IMG/VR virus record: IMGVR_UViG_3300045806_000301
Span: 1-24,119 of that record
From: a virus
Length of the DNA stretch: 24,119 bases
Direction: 5' to 3' (one strand)
This document shows, in pieces, positions 3,652 to 18,670 of the stretch. The notes under the pieces are model-generated. The model was not told where the DNA came from and searched no databases. It saw only the letters and a program-made list of their open reading frames with translations. The position numbers were made by a program, and so were the translations under genes. The first letter of the stretch is position 1. Every line of letters starts with the position of its first letter.

Positions 3652-4434
3652 ATGCAGACCGCCCCCCACAACCCGGCCCTGGACGCGCTGCGCGAGAAGA
3701 TCGCCCGGATGGAGCGCCGGCTGCCCGGTGGGTTCGAGGCCCCTTCCATGGCCTTCGGCATCGCCGCGATCGACGGGGCGCTGCCCGGTGGCGGGCTGGC
3801 ACGCGGCGCCCTGCACGAGGTCGCCGGCAGCGGCGCCCAGGGTGAGCACGCCACCGCCGCCGCCCTGTTGGTGGCCTTTCTGCTCGCCCGCGCCCACGGC
3901 CCGGTGCTGTGGGTGCTGGAACGGCGGGACCTGTTCGCCCCGGCGCTGGCCGCCGCCGGGCTGGGGCCGGAGCGGGTGGTCTATGTCGAGGCCGGCCGCC
4001 CGGTATCGGTGCTGCTGGTCATGGAGGAGGCGCTGCGCCAGCGCGGCCTGGCCGGCGTGGCCGGGGAACTCAGCGGCCGCCTGACGCTGACCGCCTCCCG
4101 CCGCCTGCAACTGGCCGCCGAGGCGTCCGGCGTGCCCGCCATCGCGCTGCGCCGCAGCCGCCGCTTCGACGACCCGGCACTGGCCGAACCCACCGCCGCG
4201 GTCACGCGCTGGCGGGTCATCGCCCTGCCCTCCGCCCCGCCGCTGCCGCAGGCGCCGGACACGCCCGGCCTGGGCCGGCCGCGCTGGCGCCTGGACCTCA
4301 CGCGCTGTCGCGGCGGCGCACCGCATGGCTGGATCGTGGAGGCGTTCGATGCGACGGGTGGTCTCGCTCTGGTTGCCGACCTGGGCCACGGACCGGCGGC
4401 GCCGGAGGCCGCAACCGGACGCACCGCCGCCTGA
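3652..4434 (+). CDS. imuA: ImuA, RecA/SulA-like accessory mutasome protein
   Basis: 260-aa protein, the first gene of the SOS mutagenesis operon. ImuA proteins are RecA-fold relatives that work with ImuB and DnaE2 in error-prone translesion synthesis. The sequence shows the ImuA hallmarks: an N-terminal LREKIARMERRL helix, then FGIAAIDGALPGGGLARGALHEV (residues about 35-57, RecA-core-like), VLWVLERRDLFAPALAAAGLGPERVVYVE, and a late TRCRGGAPHGWIVEAFDATGGLALVADL. The Walker A region is degenerate (no GKT), as is usual for the family. The ATG at 3652 has AGAGGA just upstream and follows the SOS box. The 3' end overlaps the imuB start by 86 nt in another frame, so translation of the two is probably coupled. 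Confidence 0.9.
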   Translation: MQTAPHNPALDALREKIARMERRLPGGFEAPSMAFGIAAIDGALPGGGLARGALHEVAGSGAQGEHATAAALLVAFLLARAHGPVLWVLERRDLFAPALAAAGLGPERVVYVEAGRPVSVLLVMEEALRQRGLAGVAGELSGRLTLTASRRLQLAAEASGVPAIALRRSRRFDDPALAEPTAAVTRWRVIALPSAPPLPQAPDTPGLGRPRWRLDLTRCRGGAPHGWIVEAFDATGGLALVADLGHGPAAPEAATGRTAA

Positions 4435-5869
4435 TGCGCCACTGGTGACGGTCGTGAGCGACGGGCGGCGGATGACGCTCGCCGCCGTGGATGCCGCCGC
4501 CAGCCGCCTCGGCCTGCGTCCCGGCCAGCCACTCGCCCAGGCCCGCGCCCTGGTGCCCGGCCTGGCGGTCGTGCCGGCCGATCCCGAGGGCGACGCCGCC
4601 GCCCTGGCGCGGCTGGCCACCTGGTGCCTGCGCTACACCCCGCTGACCGCCGCCGACCCGCCGGACGGGGTGTGGCTGGACATCACCGGCTGCGCGCATC
4701 TGCACGGCGGCGAGACGGCGTTGCTGACCGACCTGCTGCACCTTCTGGGCCGCGGCGGGACGCGCGGGCGGGCGGCGGCGGCCGATACGACCGGCGCCGC
4801 CCATGCGCTGGCCCGCCACGGTCCGCACGCCATCGGCATCGTTCCGTCCGGCGCCACCGCCGGGGCGCTGGCGGCGCTGCCGGTGGGCGCCCTGCGCCTG
4901 CCGGCGGAAACCGTGGAGCGGCTGCACCGGCTTGGCGTCGAGCGCATCGGCCAGCTTGCCGGTCTGCCGCGGGCGCCGCTGGTCCGCCGCTTCGGCACCG
5001 AAATCGTCCAACGTCTCGACCAGGCGCTCGGCCGGGTCGCCGAACCGATCCGCCCGGTGCTGCCCGACGAGGCGCTCGCCCGCCGCCAGGGTTTCGTCGA
5101 GCCGCTGCTGACCGCCGACGCCTTCGGCCAGGCGATCGATGCCCTGCTCGATGCGGTCTGCGCCGCGCTGGCGGCGGCTGGACAGGGCGCCCGCCGGCTC
5201 GACCTGCTGTTCGAGCGGGTGGACGGCACGGTGCAGGCGGTGCGCATCGGCACCGCCGCGCCCTGCCGCGAGCCCGGCCACCTCGCCCGCCTGCTCAAGG
5301 AGCGGCTGGAAACGGTGGACCCCGGGCTGGGCGTCGAGGCGATGCAGCTGGTGGTAGCGCTGGCCGAACCCCTCGGCGCCCGACAGCTGCGCGCCGCCCT
5401 GGCCGGCGCGGAGGAAAAACCCGACCTGGGCGCGCTGGTGGACCGCATCGCGAACCGGCTCGGTCCCGGCCGTATCTACCGCGCCGCGCCGGTGGAGAGC
5501 GACGTGCCGGAGCGCTCGGTGGCGGTGGTGCCGGCGCTCGCTCCGGCCGTCCCGGCGTCCTGGCCGGCGCTGCTGCCCCGGCCGGTGCGCCTGCTCGATC
5601 CGCCGCAGGAGGTGGAGGCGCTGGCGCTGCTGCCCGACCAGCCGCCGGTGGCCTTTATCTGGCGGCGCCGGCGCCACCGGGTGCGCCGCGCCGACGGACC
5701 CGAACGTATCTTCGGCGAGTGGTGGCGCCGCGCCGCCGAGGAGGAAGCGGTGCGCGATTATTTCGCCGTCGAGGACGAGGACGGGCGCCGATTCTGGCTG
5801 TTCCGCCGCGGCGACGGCACCGACCCCGCCAGCGGCGATTTGCGCTGGTTCCTGCACGGCCTGTTCTGA
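4349..5869 (+). CDS. imuB: ImuB, Y-family polymerase-like mutasome scaffold
   Basis: 506-aa catalytically inactive Y-family polymerase homologue that is thought to link DnaE2 to the sliding clamp and ImuA. Residues 6-16 (SLWLPTWATDR) are the ImuB replacement for the polymerase motif that normally holds the first catalytic Asp. The second motif, SIDE-x-FLDxTG in active enzymes, reads PPDGVWLDITG (104-114): the catalytic Glu is Gly, confirming a non-catalytic role. The C-terminus carries the ImuB-specific pattern ERIFGEWWRR...VRDYFAVEDEDGRRFWLFRRG...WFLHGLF. I prefer ATG 4349 to ATG 4325 because GGAGG (4338-4342) is 6 nt before it and the family motif follows directly. A possible clamp-binding peptide was not identified with certainty. 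Confidence 0.92.
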   Translation: MRRVVSLWLPTWATDRRRRRPQPDAPPPDAPLVTVVSDGRRMTLAAVDAAASRLGLRPGQPLAQARALVPGLAVVPADPEGDAAALARLATWCLRYTPLTAADPPDGVWLDITGCAHLHGGETALLTDLLHLLGRGGTRGRAAAADTTGAAHALARHGPHAIGIVPSGATAGALAALPVGALRLPAETVERLHRLGVERIGQLAGLPRAPLVRRFGTEIVQRLDQALGRVAEPIRPVLPDEALARRQGFVEPLLTADAFGQAIDALLDAVCAALAAAGQGARRLDLLFERVDGTVQAVRIGTAAPCREPGHLARLLKERLETVDPGLGVEAMQLVVALAEPLGARQLRAALAGAEEKPDLGALVDRIANRLGPGRIYRAAPVESDVPERSVAVVPALAPAVPASWPALLPRPVRLLDPPQEVEALALLPDQPPVAFIWRRRRHRVRRADGPERIFGEWWRRAAEEEAVRDYFAVEDEDGRRFWLFRRGDGTDPASGDLRWFLHGLF

Positions 5870-5880
5870 GGAGGCAGACA

Positions 5881-6099
5881 ATGGACGACACCCTGCGCCC
5901 CGCCACCGCCGAGGAGATCGCCGAGAGCCTGTGTTTCGCCCTGCGCTATGACGGCCGCAAGCGGGTGCATCACGCCGACGAGGCGATGGCGCGCATCACC
6001 GCCGCGCGGCTGGTGTCGCATCTGGAGCGCAGCGGTTTCGTGCTGATGAAGCGCCCGGCGGCGGCGGCGCCCACCACCAGCCAGCACGGCCAGCCGTGA
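5881..6099 (+). CDS. Small protein encoded between imuB and dnaE2
   Basis: 72-aa soluble protein of unknown function. It has a strong AGGAGG (5869-5874), 6 nt before its ATG, that overlaps the imuB stop. Its own TGA overlaps the GTG start of dnaE2 (GTGA). This spacing argues for a genuine translated gene made with the mutasome. The sequence is mostly helical and charged: [18 protein letters not shown] (8-25), [20 protein letters not shown] and [16 protein letters not shown], then a low-complexity Ala/Thr tail. I know of similar small ORFs in alphaproteobacterial genomes but cannot name a family. A role in SOS mutagenesis is inferred only from position; it may simply couple translation of dnaE2. 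Confidence 0.75.
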
Positions 6100-9000
6100 C
6101 CGGCTACGCCGAACTTCAGGTCACATCGAACTACGCGTTCCTGCGCGGCGCCTCGCATGTCGAGGAGTTGTTTGCCCAGGCGGCGCGGCTCGGCCTGCCG
6201 GCGCTGGGCATCGTGGACCGCGGCTCGTTTGCCGGCATCGTGCGGGCGCACCGCTGCGCCGGGGAGACCGGGGTGCGGCTGGTGGTGGGCTGCCGCCTCG
6301 ATCTGGACGACGGCACCGCGCTGCTGGCCTACCCGACCGACCGGCCGGCCTATGCGCTGCTGTGCCGGCTGCTGACGCTGGGAAAACGCCGGGCCGGAAA
6401 GGGCGGGTGCAGCCTGGGCTGGGCCGATCTGGCGGCCCATGCCGGGGGCGTGCTGGCGGTGCTGCTGCCCGACCAGCCCGGCCCGGCGCTGGCCGGCCTG
6501 CTGGCGCGGTTGCGCGCGGTGTTCGGCGACCGCGCCTACCTGGCGCTGACCCTGCGCCGCCAGCCCGGCGATGCGGTGCGGCTGGCACGGCTGGCCGAAC
6601 TGGCGGCGAGTGCGCTTGTGCCGGTGGTCGCCACCGGCGACGTGCTGTACCATGTGCCGCGGCGGCGCATCCTGCAGGACGTGGTCACCTGCATCCGCGA
6701 GGGATGCACCATCGATGCGGCCGGGTTCCGCCGCACCCGTTTCGCCGACCGCCACCTGAAATCGCCGGCCGAAATGACACGGCTGTTCGCCCGCCATCCC
6801 GGGGCGGTGGAACGCGCGCTGGAGATCGCGGCGCGCTGCCGGTTCGACCTGAAGGAACTGCGCTACCAATACCCGACCGAAGTGGACGACCCCGCCGACA
6901 CGCCGCAGACAGCGCTCGAACGGCTGGTCTGGCAGGGCGCGCCCGGCCGCTACCCCGAGGGGATGCCGGAGGCGGTGGAGCGGCAACTCCACCACGAATT
7001 GCGCCTGATCGCCGAGCTGGACTACGCGCCCTATTTCCTCACCGTGCGCAACATCGTCGCCTATGCGCGCGGCAAGAACATTCTCTGCCAAGGGCGCGGC
7101 TCGGCGGCCAATTCGGCGGTCTGCTACGTGCTCGGCATCACCAGCATCGACCCGGTGCGCAGCGGTCTGCTGTTCGAGCGTTTCGTCTCGGCCGCGCGCA
7201 AGGAGCCGCCCGACATCGACGTGGATTTCGAGCACGAGCGGCGCGAGGAGGTGATCCAGTGGGTCTACGGCCATTACGGCCGCGACCGCGCCGCGCTGTG
7301 CGCCACCGTCCATCGCTACCGCGCCCGCGGGGCGGTGCGCGAGGTGGGCCGGGCAATGGGACTGCCCGAGGACGTCACCGGCGCGCTGGCGGCCCAGGTT
7401 TCCGGCTGGGACGCCGAGGGGGTCCGGGAAGAACATGCCGCCGAGCTCAACCTGAACACCGAAGACCGGCGGCTGCGCCTGACGCTGCACCTGGCGCGTG
7501 AACTGATCGGTTTTCCTCGCCACCTTGGCCAGCATCCCGGCGGCTTCGTGCTGACCAGCGACCGGCTCGACGAACTGGTGCCGGTCGAGCCGGCGACCAT
7601 GGCCGACCGCCAGGTGATCGAGTGGGACAAGGACGACATCGACGCGCTGCGCTTCATGAAGGTCGATGTGCTCGGCCTGGGCATGCTGGGCTGCCTGCGA
7701 CGCGCCTTCGACCTGCTGGAGGACCATCGCGGGCAACGGCTGGACATCGCCACGATTCCGCCGGAGGACCCGGCCACCTACGCAATGATCCGCCGGGCCG
7801 ACACGCTGGGCACGTTCCAGATCGAGAGCCGGGCGCAGATGGCGATGCTGCCGCGTCTGCAGCCGCGCACCTTCTACGATCTGGTAATCGAGGTGGCAAT
7901 CGTCCGCCCCGGGCCGATCCAGGGTGACATGGTGCATCCCTATCTGCGCCGGCGCGAGAAGCTCGACCCGGTGGACTACCCGTCGCCCGACCTGAAGCGG
8001 GTGCTCGGAAAAACGCTCGGCGTGCCGCTGTTCCAGGAGCAGGCGATGCAGGTGGCGATCGTCTGCGCCGGGTTTTCCCCCACCGAGGCCGACCAGTTGC
8101 GGCGATCCATGGCGACGTTCAAGGTCACCGGCGGGGTCAGCCATTTCAAGCAAAATCTGGTCGAGGGGATGGTGGCGCGCGGCTACACCCGCGACTTCGC
8201 CGAGCGCACCTTCCGCCAGATCGAAGGATTCGGCAGCTACGGCTTTCCGGAAAGCCACGCCGCTTCGTTCGCGCTGATCGCCTATGCCTCGGCCTGGCTG
8301 AAATGCCATCACCCCGACATCTTCTGCGCCGCCCTGCTGAACGCGCAGCCGATGGGGTTCTACGCGCCGGCGCAGATCGTGCGCGACGCGCGCGAACACG
8401 GGGTGGAGGTGCGGCCGGTCTGCGTGAACGCCTCGCGCTGGGACTGCACGTTGGAGCCGTCGGCGGGCCGCACCCTGGCGTTACGGCTCGGCCTGCGCGT
8501 GGTGCGGGGACTGGCCAATGAGCATGCCGCGGCGATCGTGGCGCATCGCGCCGATGCCCCCTACGACGGCATCGAGGCGTTGTGGCGCCGCGCCGGCGTG
8601 CCCGTTGTGGTATTGGAACGGCTGGCCGAGGCGGATGCGTTCGGCGCCATCGGGCTGAACCGGCGGCAGGCGCTGTGGGCGATCAGCGGCCTGGCCGATA
8701 CGGTGCTGCCGCTGTTCGTCGCCGCCGACCGCGGGCGCACGCCGGCACCGGAAATCATCGAGCCGCCGGTGGCGCTGGTGCCGATGACCGATGGCGGTGA
8801 GGTGGTGGAGGATTACCGCGCGGTGGGGCTCAGCCTGCGGCGTCACCCGGTCGCATTCCTGCGCGCGGAACTGCGGTCGCGGCGGATGATCGCCTGCGCC
8901 GACCTGCCGGATGCGCGCGACGGGCGGCGGGTGGCGGTGCCCGGCATCGTGCTGGTGCGCCAGCGCCCCGGCAGCGCGAAAGGGGTGACGTTCGTCACCA

Positions 9001-9347
9001 TCGAGGACGAGACCGGGGTGGCCAACCTGGTGATCTGGCCTGCCGTGTTCGAGCGGCAGCGGCCCGCTATCCTCGGTGCGGCGATGATCGCCTGCCACGG
9101 CCGGGTGCAGCGCGAAGGCGCGGTGATCCATGTCATCGCCGACCGGCTGGACGATCTTTCCGACCTGCTGCAGAGCGTCAGCACGCGGACGGCGCCGCTT
9201 CCGCTCCCCGCCGGGCGCGGCGACGAGGTTAAGGGCGATGGCGGGCCGGACCCGCTTGTCACCGGCGAATGCCGGCCGCGCGACGTTCTTGTCCCCACGC
9301 TGCCGACCACTCCCGGAATCCGCGTGCCCACGCGGGATTTTCGCTGA
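6096..9347 (+). CDS. dnaE2: Error-prone DNA polymerase III alpha subunit, DnaE2 (ImuC)
   Basis: 1083-aa C-family polymerase that performs SOS-induced translesion synthesis with ImuA and ImuB. The start [21 protein letters not shown] (GTG at 6096) is the typical DnaE2 beginning and opens the PHP domain (about 1-250). The polymerase core includes QGRGSAANS (332-340) and the catalytic PDIDVDF (372-378, Asp373 and Asp375), followed by [39 protein letters not shown] and [23 protein letters not shown]-terminal OB-fold (about 925-1020, [11 protein letters not shown]...[18 protein letters not shown]) and the tail PTRDFR complete the protein. Length and motifs are normal and no frameshift is seen. The start overlaps the preceding stop, so expression depends on upstream translation and the SOS box. 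Confidence 0.95.
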
Positions 9348-13307: not shown

Positions 13308-13370
13308 GGAGGAGTGGGACATTCTGCTATTATGGATATCTCCTATAATAGCGAGATGTCCCACTCCTCC
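13308..13370. repeat. Imperfect palindrome, copy 1 (63 bp)
   Basis: A 15-bp perfect inverted repeat, ggaggagtgggacat (13308-13322) and its complement (13356-13370), encloses a second inverted pair (gctattat / ataatagc) around a central gatatc-like core. It lies 32 bp beyond the 3' end of the DUF6456-like gene. Aligned by eye it closely resembles a second copy at 15520-15579. It could act as a terminator here, but the similarity to the intragenic copy points to a dispersed palindromic element. Confidence 0.8.
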
Positions 13371-13402
13371 TCATGTAGCGCAGCCGCGCCTGCCGGCATT
13401 GG

Positions 13403-14011
13403 TCAGCCTGGCGCGCACTGCGCCGGCACCTGCGTCGGAGGCGCTACGACCAGCGCCGGAGGCGTGCCCCGCCGTGCCCGCGATCCCCGGTCGTAATGCA
13501 GCACCAGCGCGCCGAGCGTGCCGACCAGGATGCCCTGGCCGTGCGCCGGCAGGATCGGCGTGCCGTTCCAGCCATGGCGCATCGACCACTCGCGGATCGA
13601 GTGCTCCAACCCGACCACGTGCCACAGGCACGAGCCGCCGGGGCTGGTCATGCCGCCGACCGCCGCGATGGCGTCCGCGATCTGCTGCCGCGCGCCGACG
13701 TTGCGCTCGGTCAGCGTGGCTCCATGCCCGCGCGGCATGCGGATCAGCGGCATGGTGCGCATGCCGTCCAGCGCCGCGGCGCGGAACTGTGCGCGGAACT
13801 TCGCTGCGGCATCATGCATCTCGTCCGAGATCGCGCCGTTGCTCAGCAGCATGCCGAGCGTGTCCACGGTGCGGCGCTGCTGCACGCGGGCGCCCGTCTC
13901 CGGGTCGGCGGCGTGCTCCGGCGCGGCGATGCCGCCATGCTGGAGACGCCACTTCGAGGGCTTGGACAAGTCCTCGCGCGCAGTGCCGGCACGCTTGCGA
14001 CGGTTGGTCAT
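13403..14011 (-). CDS. DUF6456-like domain protein
   Basis: 202-aa protein. Residues about 47-175 match my memory of the DUF6456 family found in alphaproteobacteria and their mobile DNA: RTVDTLGMLLSNGAISDEMHDAAAKFRAQFRAA, then GARQQIADAIAAVGG, SPGGSCLWHVVGLEHSIREW and QGILVGTLGALVLHYD. A basic N-terminus (MTNRRKRAGTARED) precedes it. Family members are thought to be DNA-associated, but the function is not established. ATG 14011 is used, because the longer frame to 14152 is shadow of the next gene. It starts 13 nt after the stop of the upstream gene, so the two are probably co-transcribed. The palindrome follows the stop. Confidence 0.65.
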   Translation of the reverse strand: MTNRRKRAGTAREDLSKPSKWRLQHGGIAAPEHAADPETGARVQQRRTVDTLGMLLSNGAISDEMHDAAAKFRAQFRAAALDGMRTMPLIRMPRGHGATLTERNVGARQQIADAIAAVGGMTSPGGSCLWHVVGLEHSIREWSMRHGWNGTPILPAHGQGILVGTLGALVLHYDRGSRARRGTPPALVVAPPTQVPAQCAPG

Positions 14012-14024
14012 AGTGCAGTTCCCC

Positions 14025-14546
14025 TCAGTTTGGACGGTTATCGGTCGTGTTCGTGACGGTTGGTGTCGGGCGATTTCGCTTGCGGCGTTCCCAGTCCTCA
14101 CGCTGGTCGATGCGCGATTCGCCGGTGAGGCAGTCGATGTGTTTGCCGTCACCGTGCCGCGCCCAGGCGATCAGCGCGTTGGCAAGCCGGTCGATACGGT
14201 CGTTCTGCCGCATCGCCACGCGAGTGCGGAGGAACGGCTCGACATGCGCGGAATGGAACGGCAGCCAGTCGGCAGGGTCGGGAATCCAGACCTCAGCGTG
14301 GCAGCACTCGCCTGCCATCATGTCCACGAAATAGCCGCCAAGCGGTGTGCGGTAGGCGCTGACCTCCGCGTCCGTCCAGATGTCGTCGCCAATGCGGGTG
14401 TGAGCAATGCAGGCGCCGAGCACGCCGTCGAGCGCAACGTCCCAATCGCCGCCTGCATCGGCCGTTTGGTGCAGCAACGACATCCATGGCGGGCACGGCT
14501 CGCTGGTGAAAATACCGGCGCGATAGACAGTGATGGTCTCGCCCAT
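14025..14546 (-). CDS. Hypothetical protein, YRAG-motif paralogue A
   Basis: 173-aa protein without a recognised domain. It begins MGETITVYRAGIFTSEPCPPW and has a late RIDRLANALIAWARHGDGKHIDCLTGES. Both parts match the upstream neighbour (paralogue B: ITVYRAGHFT..., RLHRISNVLVAQARHGVGPHMDGFAG), so the pair arose by duplication. The middle part is acidic/aromatic and contains a GGYFVDMMAGECCHAEVWIP stretch. ATG 14546 has AGGAGAA upstream. The genes around it form an element replication module, so a phage or plasmid accessory role is likely, but no biochemical function can be proposed. Confidence 0.65.
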   Translation of the reverse strand: MGETITVYRAGIFTSEPCPPWMSLLHQTADAGGDWDVALDGVLGACIAHTRIGDDIWTDAEVSAYRTPLGGYFVDMMAGECCHAEVWIPDPADWLPFHSAHVEPFLRTRVAMRQNDRIDRLANALIAWARHGDGKHIDCLTGESRIDQREDWERRKRNRPTPTVTNTTDNRPN

Positions 14547-14620
14547 CTGTGGTTCTCCTGGGTCGGAATGGATTGCTGCATGAGCAGTGGCGCGCGTGCG
14601 AAACGCGATCAGTGGTCCGG

Positions 14621-15097
14621 TCAGGGCGCGATGCGGTCGCCCCGTCTTCGTGTGTCGAACGGGGAGGTTCCGGCGAAACCGTCCATGTGCGGGCCAACGC
14701 CGTGGCGGGCCTGGGCGACCAGCACGTTGCTGATTCGGTGCAGCCGGTCGGTGAGCGCCACGGTGGCGTGCGCCTGCAGGAACGGTCCGATGAAGGCGAC
14801 GTGGAACGCCAGCCAGTCCTCGCGACGTGGGACGAGGATGGTTTCGGTCCGGCAGCCGGCCACGCGGAACACCACGTAATGGGCACCGTCTGGAAGCGGC
14901 CAATACGAGACGCCTGCCTCGGACGGGTGGCTATGGCTGATCTCGATATCTTCGCCCTCGGTGCCGAGTTCCCGGATGATTGCATCGGCCCAGGGCAGGC
15001 GCGGCGGCGTCGGCTGCAGCCTTGCCCTGGTCAGCCATGCCGGCTCGCGCTCAGCCGTGAAATGGCCGGCGCGATAGACGGTGATCTTTTCAGTCAT
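14621..15097 (-). CDS. Hypothetical protein, YRAG-motif paralogue B
   Basis: 158-aa protein starting MTEKITVYRAGHFTAEREPAW, with EDIEISHSHPSEAGVSYWPL in the middle, then GAHYVVFRVAGCRTETILVP and RLHRISNVLVAQARHGVGPHMD. It is paralogous to the next gene on the same strand. ATG 15097 is preceded by aaggggaacc, which supplies a plausible ribosome-binding site. It lies 46 bp after the helicase-like gene and is probably part of its transcript. No known domain was recognised. Confidence 0.65.
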   Translation of the reverse strand: MTEKITVYRAGHFTAEREPAWLTRARLQPTPPRLPWADAIIRELGTEGEDIEISHSHPSEAGVSYWPLPDGAHYVVFRVAGCRTETILVPRREDWLAFHVAFIGPFLQAHATVALTDRLHRISNVLVAQARHGVGPHMDGFAGTSPFDTRRRGDRIAP

Positions 15098-15143
15098 ATG
15101 GTTCCCCTTGTTCGGCAGTGGCGCGCCGCGTCTGCGGCGCCGG

Positions 15144-17477
15144 TCAGGCCGCGGCCGTGGTTGGCCTGGCCGCTTCAAGTCGTGCCGACAGCGCGGCGAG
15201 ACGGCCGCGGTTGGCGGTGATGCGTTGCTGCATGGCGACACCAAGCCGCGTGCCCAGGTTTGTGAGCCGATCGCGGTCGTTGGCGGCGCGCTGCCGGATC
15301 ATGGCGTTGAGGCTTGCGCGGAGCCGGGCGCGCGCCTCGGCCAGATCGGTCGTCGCATGAGGCGCGGCGACCAGTACGTCGCCGCCGGTGATCTCGAAAT
15401 GCGCGAGCGGACCGAGCCGCGCTTCCAGCCAGGCGCGCGGGTCGGAGATCAGCGCGAGGTCGAACCGTGCCTCGCGATCCTTCTGCCCCGCCCCGGATGG
15501 CCGATATGTGACAACCGCCGAGGAGGGGGTCAAATCGCTATTATGGGTATCTCTATAATGGCAGTTTGTCCCCCTCCTCTGGTTCTGCTTCTTGGCTGCG
15601 TCCCGCGTCGCCCAAAGTTCGGGGAAAGCCTTGGCCATGTCTGCGGCGTTCTCCAGCACCACGCCCGCGGCGAGCATCGCGTCGTGCCTCGTCGGGCGGA
15701 TGTCGTCCCATTGCAGCACCTCGTGCACCGTGACTGGCAGCGCGACATCTGTGAGCAGGTCGACTTCCAGCGGGGTGTGGGCGGTGCGGTTGACACCGCG
15801 GCCGCGACCGATCGCCTGGATCAGTTCGCCCTCGCAGATCGTCCAGCGCACGGCCTCGGCGGTCGGGTCGGCATGCGCCTCACCGGAAACCGGGTGAACC
15901 CCATCATCGGCCAGGCCGATGCGCCGCTCGACGCAGCCATACCACCACGAGACCGCGCCGCGGCTTTCCAAGGGCGGCCGGTTGGTCACTGCCGCCGCGA
16001 TCGTCTCCACCGTCGCCGGCGTGGGCAGGGTGCGGCCGAGGATCATCAGCCCCGCCACGTCGCGCCAGCGGTCGATACCGCTCAGCGCATTGAAGTGCAC
16101 GGCCTCGGCGTTGCGTGGCAGGCCGATGGTGCGCAGCGCATCCACCGCCGCCTTCTGCGCGATGACCAGCAGGTCCGGCCGCGCTGCGCTGCGTCCCCGC
16201 AGGTCCATGGCGCGCAGCGCAATCAGCGTCGCCAGGTCCCGCAGATGTCCGGCCGCTGCGTCGCGCTCGCGTGCAGCAGCCTCAGGAAGCGGCGTCAGTG
16301 CCTTCGCACTGGTTGGGGCACCGAGTATCTGCCGCACCCGCACATGCGGCTCCATGGCCATCAGGGACTCCGCAAAAGCCATGTCCGGCACGAAGGGGAT
16401 GACGAGTTCGGGCCGCATCGTCGCATCGAGGTGAAGGATCGGTCCCTCGGAGCCCCAGCCCTGCCGCAGTTCGACGCGCCAGGCGAGGCGGAGCGATCGC
16501 ACCGTGCCGTTCTCGGTCATGTCGTCGAACACCACCGCTCCGGCGACATCGTGATCACTCTCCAGCGCGGCGGCGATCAGGTGCCACATCGCAGCGGCGC
16601 GCCCGGGCGGCACCCAGGGTTCGCCCTGCTTCGGCAGCACATGCTCAATACGCCGGCGCCGTTCCGCCAGGTCCATGCCGGGCAGGAGGCCGGGATTGCG
16701 CAGCCGCCGGTGTTCCAGTCCCGCCGCCGTGCGACACTGCTCCGGCGTGAGGCCGGTTGCCCGCAATGCGGCACTCGACAGCGGACCGTTCGGCGCCGTG
16801 TCGAGCATGTTCGAGAGTCGCTCACGCGCGGCGCCGAGATCGGCGGTGGCGTCCAACCAGGGCTGGTTGCGCGCGGTGTAGCATTGCACCGTGCCGAGCG
16901 TCGGCCGCAGCCCGTCCAGCGTCAGCACCGCCTTGCCATCCAGGCCGCGCAGCCCGGCCGCCCAGAACCCCTCGTCGAGCACCATCAGGCCGACGGCGCC
17001 GATCTCCCGCGGCGCCTCGTGAAACAGCGTGTCGTGCGCAGTGAGGATCACCTGCGCCGCCTCGGCCAGCGGCTTCTGCGCCTGGTAGCCGCACTGCGCG
17101 TGCAGCGGGCAGATATGCACGACTCCCTTGCGCGTGACCTTGCAGGCAGTCTGTTCGACGACACGCTCGACCTCCATCGCATCGAACGGCGCGGACGGAT
17201 CGAGGCACATCAGCCGTTCCGGGTCTGTGGGTGATGGATCGGGGGCGGTGCGGCCCTTCCAGACCATCGCGTCGATACCGAGTCCGTGCAGCGCGCGGCG
17301 CTGCTCCTCGGCGAGGTCGTGCCGCGGCACGCCGTAGATCACCTTGCGCCCGCCGAGCGCGTCGCGGCCCAGCAGGTCGGCGATGCCGCGGTGTGCCGCG
17401 CTCGACTTGCCGAGGCCGACGGCGACCGGCAGGGCGAGCCGCGGCGGTGCGGGATCAGCGTTGAAATCTAGCGGCAT
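15144..17477 (-). CDS. Helicase-like ATPase of the element replication module
   Basis: 777-aa P-loop protein with helicase signatures. They are a Walker A-like GLGKSS (21-26), a Walker B-like VLDEGFW (about 166-172), HLDATM (about 350), a segment VHFNALSGIDRWRDVAGLMILGR resembling motif V, and QAIGRGRGVNR (about 554) resembling motif VI, whose arginines contact ATP. Between Walker A and B four cysteines (Cys91, 112, 123, 129) precede VILTAHDTLFH, an arrangement reminiscent of iron-sulfur XPD/DinG helicases, though the spacing differs. It probably unwinds DNA for element replication with the overlapping Toprim protein; its ATG overlaps that gene's 3' end by 10 nt. The palindrome copy 2 lies in frame at about residues 633-653. 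The C-terminal ~125 residues are helical and basic. Confidence 0.75.
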   Translation of the reverse strand: MPLDFNADPAPPRLALPVAVGLGKSSAAHRGIADLLGRDALGGRKVIYGVPRHDLAEEQRRALHGLGIDAMVWKGRTAPDPSPTDPERLMCLDPSAPFDAMEVERVVEQTACKVTRKGVVHICPLHAQCGYQAQKPLAEAAQVILTAHDTLFHEAPREIGAVGLMVLDEGFWAAGLRGLDGKAVLTLDGLRPTLGTVQCYTARNQPWLDATADLGAARERLSNMLDTAPNGPLSSAALRATGLTPEQCRTAAGLEHRRLRNPGLLPGMDLAERRRRIEHVLPKQGEPWVPPGRAAAMWHLIAAALESDHDVAGAVVFDDMTENGTVRSLRLAWRVELRQGWGSEGPILHLDATMRPELVIPFVPDMAFAESLMAMEPHVRVRQILGAPTSAKALTPLPEAAARERDAAAGHLRDLATLIALRAMDLRGRSAARPDLLVIAQKAAVDALRTIGLPRNAEAVHFNALSGIDRWRDVAGLMILGRTLPTPATVETIAAAVTNRPPLESRGAVSWWYGCVERRIGLADDGVHPVSGEAHADPTAEAVRWTICEGELIQAIGRGRGVNRTAHTPLEVDLLTDVALPVTVHEVLQWDDIRPTRHDAMLAAGVVLENAADMAKAFPELWATRDAAKKQNQRRGTNCHYRDTHNSDLTPSSAVVTYRPSGAGQKDREARFDLALISDPRAWLEARLGPLAHFEITGGDVLVAAPHATTDLAEARARLRASLNAMIRQRAANDRDRLTNLGTRLGVAMQQRITANRGRLAALSARLEAARPTTAAA
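15520..15579. repeat. Imperfect palindrome, copy 2 (60 bp), inside the helicase gene
   Basis: gaggagggggtcaaa (15520-15534) and its near-complement tttgtccccctcctc (15565-15579) pair with one mismatch, enclosing cgctattatgggtatctctataatggc. It keeps the helicase frame open, adding the peptide RRGTNCHYRDTHNSDLTPSS. The same strand and frame of copy 1 would read IIGDIHNSRMSHSS, so both copies share an xDxHNS core. Sequence flanking the two copies is not clearly related. Confidence 0.8.
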
Positions 17478-18670
17478 GCGGGCACGTGCGTGGTGCTGTC
17501 GTCATCGAGAGTCATGGCAGCGAACCAGGGCGGCGGAGCGAGATCGGCAGCGGCGGCGATGTCATCAATGTTCAGCGTCTCGTTCCTCCAGTGCTGCGCA
17601 ACGTCAGCCATGAACACAGCGATCCCGGTTTCCAGCGCCAGGCGCGCGACAGGCGGGCTGAGCCGGGCCGGCGGGTAGGTTGGCGCCGGCGGTGGCAGCG
17701 GGGCCGCAGTGGCGACGCAGCTGCGGACGGCGCAGAGCCCGCGCTTTGCGGCCAGATCGTTGACGTCGCCGGGCTCCGGCGGAATGGCGATCCAGGCGCC
17801 GGTCGCACGGGCCGCTGCAGTGGCCGCTGCCACGCCCGGGTTGTCGATGCGGCCTGGCTTGTCATCGTTGTCGGCGATGATCACCAAGTGCGCTGCAGGG
17901 AAGCGTGCATGCACCAGCGGCGCGACAAGTTTCAGGTTGCCCGCGTCCATTGCCGCCACCACCGGCAGGCCGGACGCCTCATGCAGCGTGGCGCCGGTCG
18001 CCCAGCCTTCGCAGAACAGGATCGTCGCGGCGCCTTCGAGTTGTCCACCGATCAGAACGAAGTGATCGGCTTTGACGCCGCCGGCCAGGAATCGTTTGGT
18101 GCCGTTCTCGTCAATGTCCTGGAATGTGTGGATCGTGCCATCGAGGTCGACCAGCGGCAGGATCAGCCTCCCCCAGCCGTCCATCCGGATGCCGAAGGGC
18201 TGCACCCGCTTGCGCTGCAAATAGGCGTGGTCGGGGTCGACGGGATTGGCATGCTCCCAGATCAGTGCCGCCGCGCGGCGCGCGGCCTCACGACGCTCGG
18301 TCTCGATATGCGGAGCGGCGTCGTTGGCAGCAACCAGGATGATGGGCTCCACGGCTGCGCCGGCCGGGTGTGCATTGCACCGTGGTTCCCACCGCGGCAG
18401 GCCAAGCCAGGCGCGTGCCCAATCGGCGGCGTCGCGCCAGTCGCCGCCATGCACGCGGGCGATCAGTTCGAGCGGTCCGCCACCGCAGCCTGCCTCGTAG
18501 TCGAACCAGGTGCCGGCCTTCGGCCCGCTCATCACGGCCGAGAGGCTGCCACGGCGGTTCCAGCGCCACTGCCGTGCCGTGCGGCGCGACGGCTTGCCGA
18601 GCAGGTCCAGCAGCAGCGGTTGCCAGTTGCCGATCAGGTCGAGACGCAGCGCGCGCAGGTCGTTGCTCAT
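17468..18670 (-). CDS. Toprim-domain primase-like protein
   Basis: 400-aa protein typical of phage or plasmid primases. The N-terminal region has RQWRWNRRGSLSAVMSGPKAGTWFDYEAGCGGGPLELI (about 34-70), the part that precedes the catalytic core in such primases. The Toprim core follows: LFCEGWATGATLHEASG (218-234, Glu221), AMDAGNLKLVAPLV, and LVIIADNDDKPG (262-273, Asp267 and Asp269), which would coordinate Mg2+ for primer synthesis. The last third is Pro/Ala-rich. ATG 18670 has GGAGG at a good distance upstream. The 3' end overlaps the helicase ATG, so primase and helicase are probably made together for element replication. No zinc-finger cysteine set is evident. Confidence 0.8.
   Translation of the reverse strand: MSNDLRALRLDLIGNWQPLLLDLLGKPSRRTARQWRWNRRGSLSAVMSGPKAGTWFDYEAGCGGGPLELIARVHGGDWRDAADWARAWLGLPRWEPRCNAHPAGAAVEPIILVAANDAAPHIETERREAARRAAALIWEHANPVDPDHAYLQRKRVQPFGIRMDGWGRLILPLVDLDGTIHTFQDIDENGTKRFLAGGVKADHFVLIGGQLEGAATILFCEGWATGATLHEASGLPVVAAMDAGNLKLVAPLVHARFPAAHLVIIADNDDKPGRIDNPGVAAATAAARATGAWIAIPPEPGDVNDLAAKRGLCAVRSCVATAAPLPPPAPTYPPARLSPPVARLALETGIAVFMADVAQHWRNETLNIDDIAAAADLAPPPWFAAMTLDDDSTTHVPACR

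Follow-up and report, generated by a model that had tools for sequence, protein, structure and literature searches.

Among the closest described systems are the repABC plasmids, exemplified by p42d of Rhizobium etli, in which oriV lies inside repC; silent mutations in its AT-rich region abolish replication, and the place of that region is not conserved (PMC3155836). A passage of that paper also cites RepA of N15 as a cis-acting initiator (PMC3155836). The text of PMC3155836 mentions no palindrome, whereas the site described below is a palindrome that is fixed in place. The two cases are alike in having an origin (here a candidate one) within the coding sequence of an initiator, in having an AT-rich region and in occurring on alphaproteobacterial plasmids, but RepC has not been described as a helicase or primase. 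In N15 and PY54 the replication gene repA constitutes a minimal replicon carrying its own origin. The resemblance is to a phage-plasmid replication gene with an origin inside it (here a candidate one); however, these elements are gammaproteobacterial, their RepA is a single multidomain protein, and the comparison is one of description. At the ssi sites of RSF1010 and other IncQ plasmids, a primase encoded by the plasmid acts on DNA that forms hairpins, but these sites are shorter and lie outside the primase gene. Herpesvirus oriS and oriL are palindromic origins with an AT-rich centre, used by the SF2 helicase UL9, the origin-binding protein; they belong to a eukaryotic virus, lie outside the helicase gene and are again compared by description. 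Lastly, the RPEs of Rickettsia are palindromic DNA lying in frame in coding genes, as is the palindrome considered here, but they are dispersed over many genes, whereas the present one occupies a single site in a single gene family and is under covariation.

The window, i.e., the whole stretch of DNA analyzed, comprises 24,119 nucleotides of the predicted virus record IMGVR_UViG_3300045806_000301 (features in Table 1). The sequence-only reading had reported two related palindromes of about 60 bp, one of them in frame in a helicase gene, and both proved to lie where it had placed them. Read in one orientation, they are identical at 46 of 61 positions (75%) as counted on the alignment. They share one layout, running from a 12-bp outer arm through a 5-bp linker in which pairing is not needed and a 7-bp inner arm to an AT-rich centre. 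A long hairpin is predicted for both copies on either strand. The half-site pattern GGGNCANNNYGCYATTATRG, scanned with up to three mismatches, has four matches in the window, one for each arm of each copy, against a chance expectation of 0.59. The palindrome score of copy 2 is 16.2, and the maximum reached in 60 synonymous-codon shuffles of the helicase gene is 13.0.

Table 1. Coordinates of the palindromes and neighbouring genes in the window
Feature	Position	Strand	Remarks
Palindrome copy 1	13308..13370	.	Intergenic; same place in L003, L013, L086/L090, L087
DUF6456-like gene	13403..14026	-	Below Pfam cut-off; last gene before copy 1
Small conserved gene, same cluster	14025..14552	-	
Small conserved gene downstream of helicase	14621..15097	-	Apparent paralogue of the 14025..14552 gene
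Helicase gene	15144..17477	-	Walker A GLGKS, VLDE, LDAT, QAIGRGRG; four near-invariant Cys
Palindrome copy 2	15520..15579	.	In frame within the minus-strand helicase ORF 15144-17477
Copy 2 outer arms	15520-15531/15568-15579		
Copy 2 inner arms	15537-15543/15556-15562		
Copy 2 AT-rich centre	15544-15555		
Toprim primase gene	17468..18670	-	Toprim_3 1.5e-12; DNA primase PHROGs; overlaps helicase gene start

The protein encoded by the gene with copy 2 has SF2-like motifs and four near-invariant cysteines (C90, C111, C122 and C128); XPD/DinG Fe-S helicases are recognised by SF2 motifs plus four cysteines between Walker A and Walker B. XPD and DinG are the two top Foldseek hits of its predicted structure (E about 1e-3), and its profile hits to XPD/DinG are not significant (E 0.6-0.8); it is thus probably, but tentatively, an XPD/DinG-like Fe-S SF2 helicase. 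The predicted structure is of low overall confidence (mean pLDDT 55) but better in its C-terminal half. There, residues 635-650, encoded by the palindrome, form a low-confidence loop (residues 641-650 have a block mean pLDDT of 38), flanked by a helix and a strand predicted at a pLDDT of about 80. Although found in several alphaproteobacterial groups, the helicase matches no family in Pfam, NCBIfam or PHROGs. In several plasmid homologues it is fused to the Toprim primase.

Relatives were recovered by a pattern scan of viral contigs, which yielded a locus about 71% identical with both palindromes at corresponding places (L003), and then by helicase searches, which added loci from Acetobacteraceae (L005-L016) and Bradyrhizobium (L017-L019) and plasmids of Roseomonas, Methylorubrum, Methylobacterium, Bradyrhizobium, Agrobacterium and others (L022-L032). 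The palindrome is at the equivalent helicase site in the homologues among L003-L015, and nearly all close homologues that reach the palindrome region of the ORF have it at the equivalent position; the sequences of L014 and L016 end at or before that region. A further product of the pattern scan, L004, is a chance match that carries no palindrome. In 36 of 44 sampled helicases, no palindrome in the ORF scores higher than the one in the loop that aligns with residues ~630-645 of the window protein, as against roughly 4% expected for a random place in the ORF, and this placement holds down to ~23% helicase protein identity. Most of the 36 surpass every synonymous-codon shuffle of their own gene, but some of the weaker ones (e.g., those of L022, L028, L053 and L060) are not distinct from such shuffles by themselves. 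In many GC-rich genes the site does not stand out by sliding-window folding energy alone; it does by the palindrome score combined with synonymous shuffles. Once internal mismatches are allowed, L075, L092, L093 and L094 also have a palindrome at the homologous site, and L097, L099 and L100, from a phylum-wide sample, have one in the equivalent C-terminal region of the ORF. No clear palindrome is seen in the helicase relatives that are most distant (L057, L061, L062, L064 and L098). Two records call for separate mention. Rhodosalinus has a distant helicase-like ORF with a similar kind of palindrome, TTTGGGGACAAAACGCTATAATATATTATAGCG.., close to its end (L020, 2847-2892) and apparently outside the homologous helicase loop. 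A plasmid recorded for Bacillus safensis U14-5 (L026, NZ_CP015609.1) has the alphaproteobacterial replication gene together with the palindrome and resembles Roseomonas mucosa plasmids, which possibly reflects contamination or mislabelling of the Bacillus record.

The letters of the arms differ widely among these relatives and their self-complementarity is kept, as in GAGGAGTGTGACAGGCCCTTATAAAT.. of a Bradyrhizobium plasmid (L027), GAGCACCGTTACAGATCCC.. of the Methylorubrum extorquens plasmid pCMU02 (L024) and CGCTCACGAGCTATTTTACC.. of L059. Among the Acetobacteraceae copies, there are 15 two-sided compensatory changes vs 7.0 in shuffles (none of 500 reaches 15), with arm pairs such as GGGGGACA/TGTCCCCC and GTGTGACG/CGTCACAC; between the GGGGGACA and GTGTGACG arm types, the encoded peptide changes from RRGTN to ARSVT and the palindrome persists. 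Identity at four-fold-degenerate sites is 0.776 at the palindrome (mean 0.54, sd 0.08), the highest of the gene windows tested, whereas amino-acid identity there is 0.68 compared with 0.74 in the core, and GC3 is 0.59 compared with 0.83. Palindromicity and position are kept while the letters are replaced, and the locus offers a clear natural case of one sequence that serves at once as a flexible loop of a protein and as a DNA palindrome under strong constraint.

We consider the helicase-gene palindrome to be, somewhat probably, a cis-acting replication site operating at the level of DNA, most likely a candidate origin or a site at which the initiator or primase is loaded. The conservation of four-fold sites, the covariation and the fixed position are those of a cis element in a replication ORF constrained beyond the peptide, and an AT-rich, easily melted segment is present, in that the AT-richest 36 bp of the gene coincide with the palindrome loop in 37 of the 44 sampled helicases. 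Origin activity and the identity of the binding protein are what we infer from this pattern. The site would belong to a family of plasmids and phages from Alphaproteobacteria whose replication relies on a Toprim primase together with an XPD/DinG-like SF2 helicase. Replication proteins of the element itself would recognise the outer and inner inverted arms, either in the duplex, as half-sites, or after extrusion of a hairpin, with opening at the AT-rich centre. With the site placed in a permissive loop of the replication gene, that gene would carry both the protein and its own target, and arms and protein would co-diverge between lineages. The repABC oriV inside repC is a direct precedent from Alphaproteobacteria for such an arrangement.

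Some small plasmids carry the helicase gene together with a ParA-type gene. No other replication gene is annotated on p546-7, HV2 plasmid 4 or pCMU02, and a Pfam scan of 10 pCMU02 proteins found no known Rep domain. In three of four circular plasmids, the distance between the GC-skew minimum and the palindrome is within 9% of the plasmid length, which weakly favours an origin, but pCMU02 disagrees. Chromosomally located elements carry the palindrome too, which counts against an origin, as does the lack of a clear palindrome in the most distant helicase relatives. The wider proposal is one that we advance tentatively: these loci may represent a replicon class not described so far and common among the plasmids and phages of Alphaproteobacteria, in which a primase and an XPD/DinG-like Fe-S helicase would initiate replication at a hairpin-forming origin in a fixed loop of the helicase gene, the specificities of origin and protein co-diverging as one transferable unit. 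In the literature consulted, which was mainly open-access, no description of such a palindrome was found. If the origin reading is right, one gene would suffice as both origin and initiator in a large group of alphaproteobacterial plasmids and phages that is as yet untyped, and typing these elements, like building vectors from them, would become simple.

Copy 1 may serve replication as a second site, or it may be a hairpin recruited to a 3' end. In the window, about 30 bp separate its start from the stop codon of the DUF6456-like gene, and the distance is ~20-35 bp across the loci that share the position. Its presence in only some elements implies that gain or loss of the second site has occurred within the element. 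In BLAST searches of plasmids and phages, copy 1 had at most weak matches over part of its length. Separately, unrelated long imperfect inverted repeats follow the DUF6456-like gene at 6846-6912 in L005, 13406-13472 in L007 and 13407-13473 in L009. That copy 1 was recruited from the candidate origin and now acts mainly to terminate transcription or to stabilise the mRNA, and not as a second replication site, is a serious possibility short of being the probable one. Its short distance from the stop codon points that way, as does the unrelated inverted repeat found at that place in L005, L007, L008 and L009, which are without copy 1; however, its arms, linker and AT-rich core are the same as those of the helicase copy, and no T-run follows it. 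Such a role would concern copy 1 only and is compatible with an origin in the helicase gene.

The nested inverted-repeat dyad with free linkers resembles a protein-binding site, and several of the plasmids have ParA plus an integrase or recombinase gene. These features are what would be expected of an operator, a parS-like partition site or a site-specific recombination site of the element. We nevertheless regard these functions as unlikely: the site lies deep in the replication ORF regardless of the neighbouring genes, it is found in chromosomally located elements as well, and its half-site spacers of 8, 12 or 16 bp are unlike a recombinase core. Two further candidates were set aside. A packaging site is unlikely because plasmids without an annotated terminase carry the palindrome, and a telomere-resolvase target, suggested by the shape, is judged unlikely since a cut there would split the helicase gene.

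The confinement of copy 2 to one gene, the very stable RNA hairpin predicted for it, the rare tandem AGG codons and the A-rich internal loop on the sense strand of several copies might instead indicate action in the mRNA, as a hairpin that makes translation pause, serves as a substrate of RNase III or lets the helicase regulate its own synthesis by binding to it. RNA stems usually tolerate G-U pairs. Here, the arm pairs comprise 390 Watson-Crick, 2 G-T and 4 A-C pairs, and over all stem positions G-T and A-C are equally frequent (29 each), with most such mismatches in the linker and centre; the excess of G-U over A-C expected of a structured RNA is not seen. As G-T is not favoured over A-C, the pairing pattern fits a constraint acting on double-stranded DNA better than one acting on an RNA stem. 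One copy, moreover, lies outside any ORF, and the palindrome has no match in Rfam. An RNA-level element is therefore quite improbable, in contrast to the DNA-level replication site favoured above.

The sequence-only reading had leaned toward copies of a dispersed element, with copy 2 adding about 20 residues to the helicase. A covariance model built from the palindromes found matches in 9 of 13 host genomes, each at one place, the helicase copy; one genome has, in addition, a further copy at a distance of ~1.6 kb. Of 398 genomes searched in the family, 15 have matches, at one place or at two ~1.6-2.1 kb apart; where present in the host genomes, the second copy lies ~1.6-2.2 kb downstream of the helicase copy. 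A wider model, built from divergent palindromes for more distant genomes, matched in 9 of 17 of them, at the helicase site only. No copies elsewhere in the host genomes were found by these searches, and the many dispersed copies per genome that typify RPEs are absent. Nor is there a clean empty site, as every full-length homologue at 67-72% identity carries the same loop; homologues without the peptide, as an insertion would predict, did not turn up, those found have the palindrome at the same site, and the addition of about 20 residues is not confirmed. Conserved placement and the lack of copies elsewhere are the two outcomes that the sequence-only reading had itself named as refuting its main idea. 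That a selfish RPE-like palindromic element was inserted in frame and then spread to a second site is thus largely refuted, for all that the two copies are ~75% identical and copy 1 occurs in only some elements: there are one or two copies, at one locus or two close loci, per 4-6 Mb genome, the helicase copy stays in its loop down to about 23% protein identity with no empty site, and the covariation of the arms indicates selection rather than decay. What survives of the earlier interpretation is the relatedness of the copies and the alternative it offered, in which the palindrome is the element's own protein-binding site or hairpin, a view that the results support; the mobile insertion does not survive.

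Elsewhere in the window, positions 3652-9347 on the plus strand hold a mutagenesis cassette resembling imuA-imuB-dnaE2, with an IMS domain and DNA polymerase III alpha domains. It sits between the phage tail and head genes of the predicted virus record; the phage could carry it, or it could mark a boundary with host DNA.
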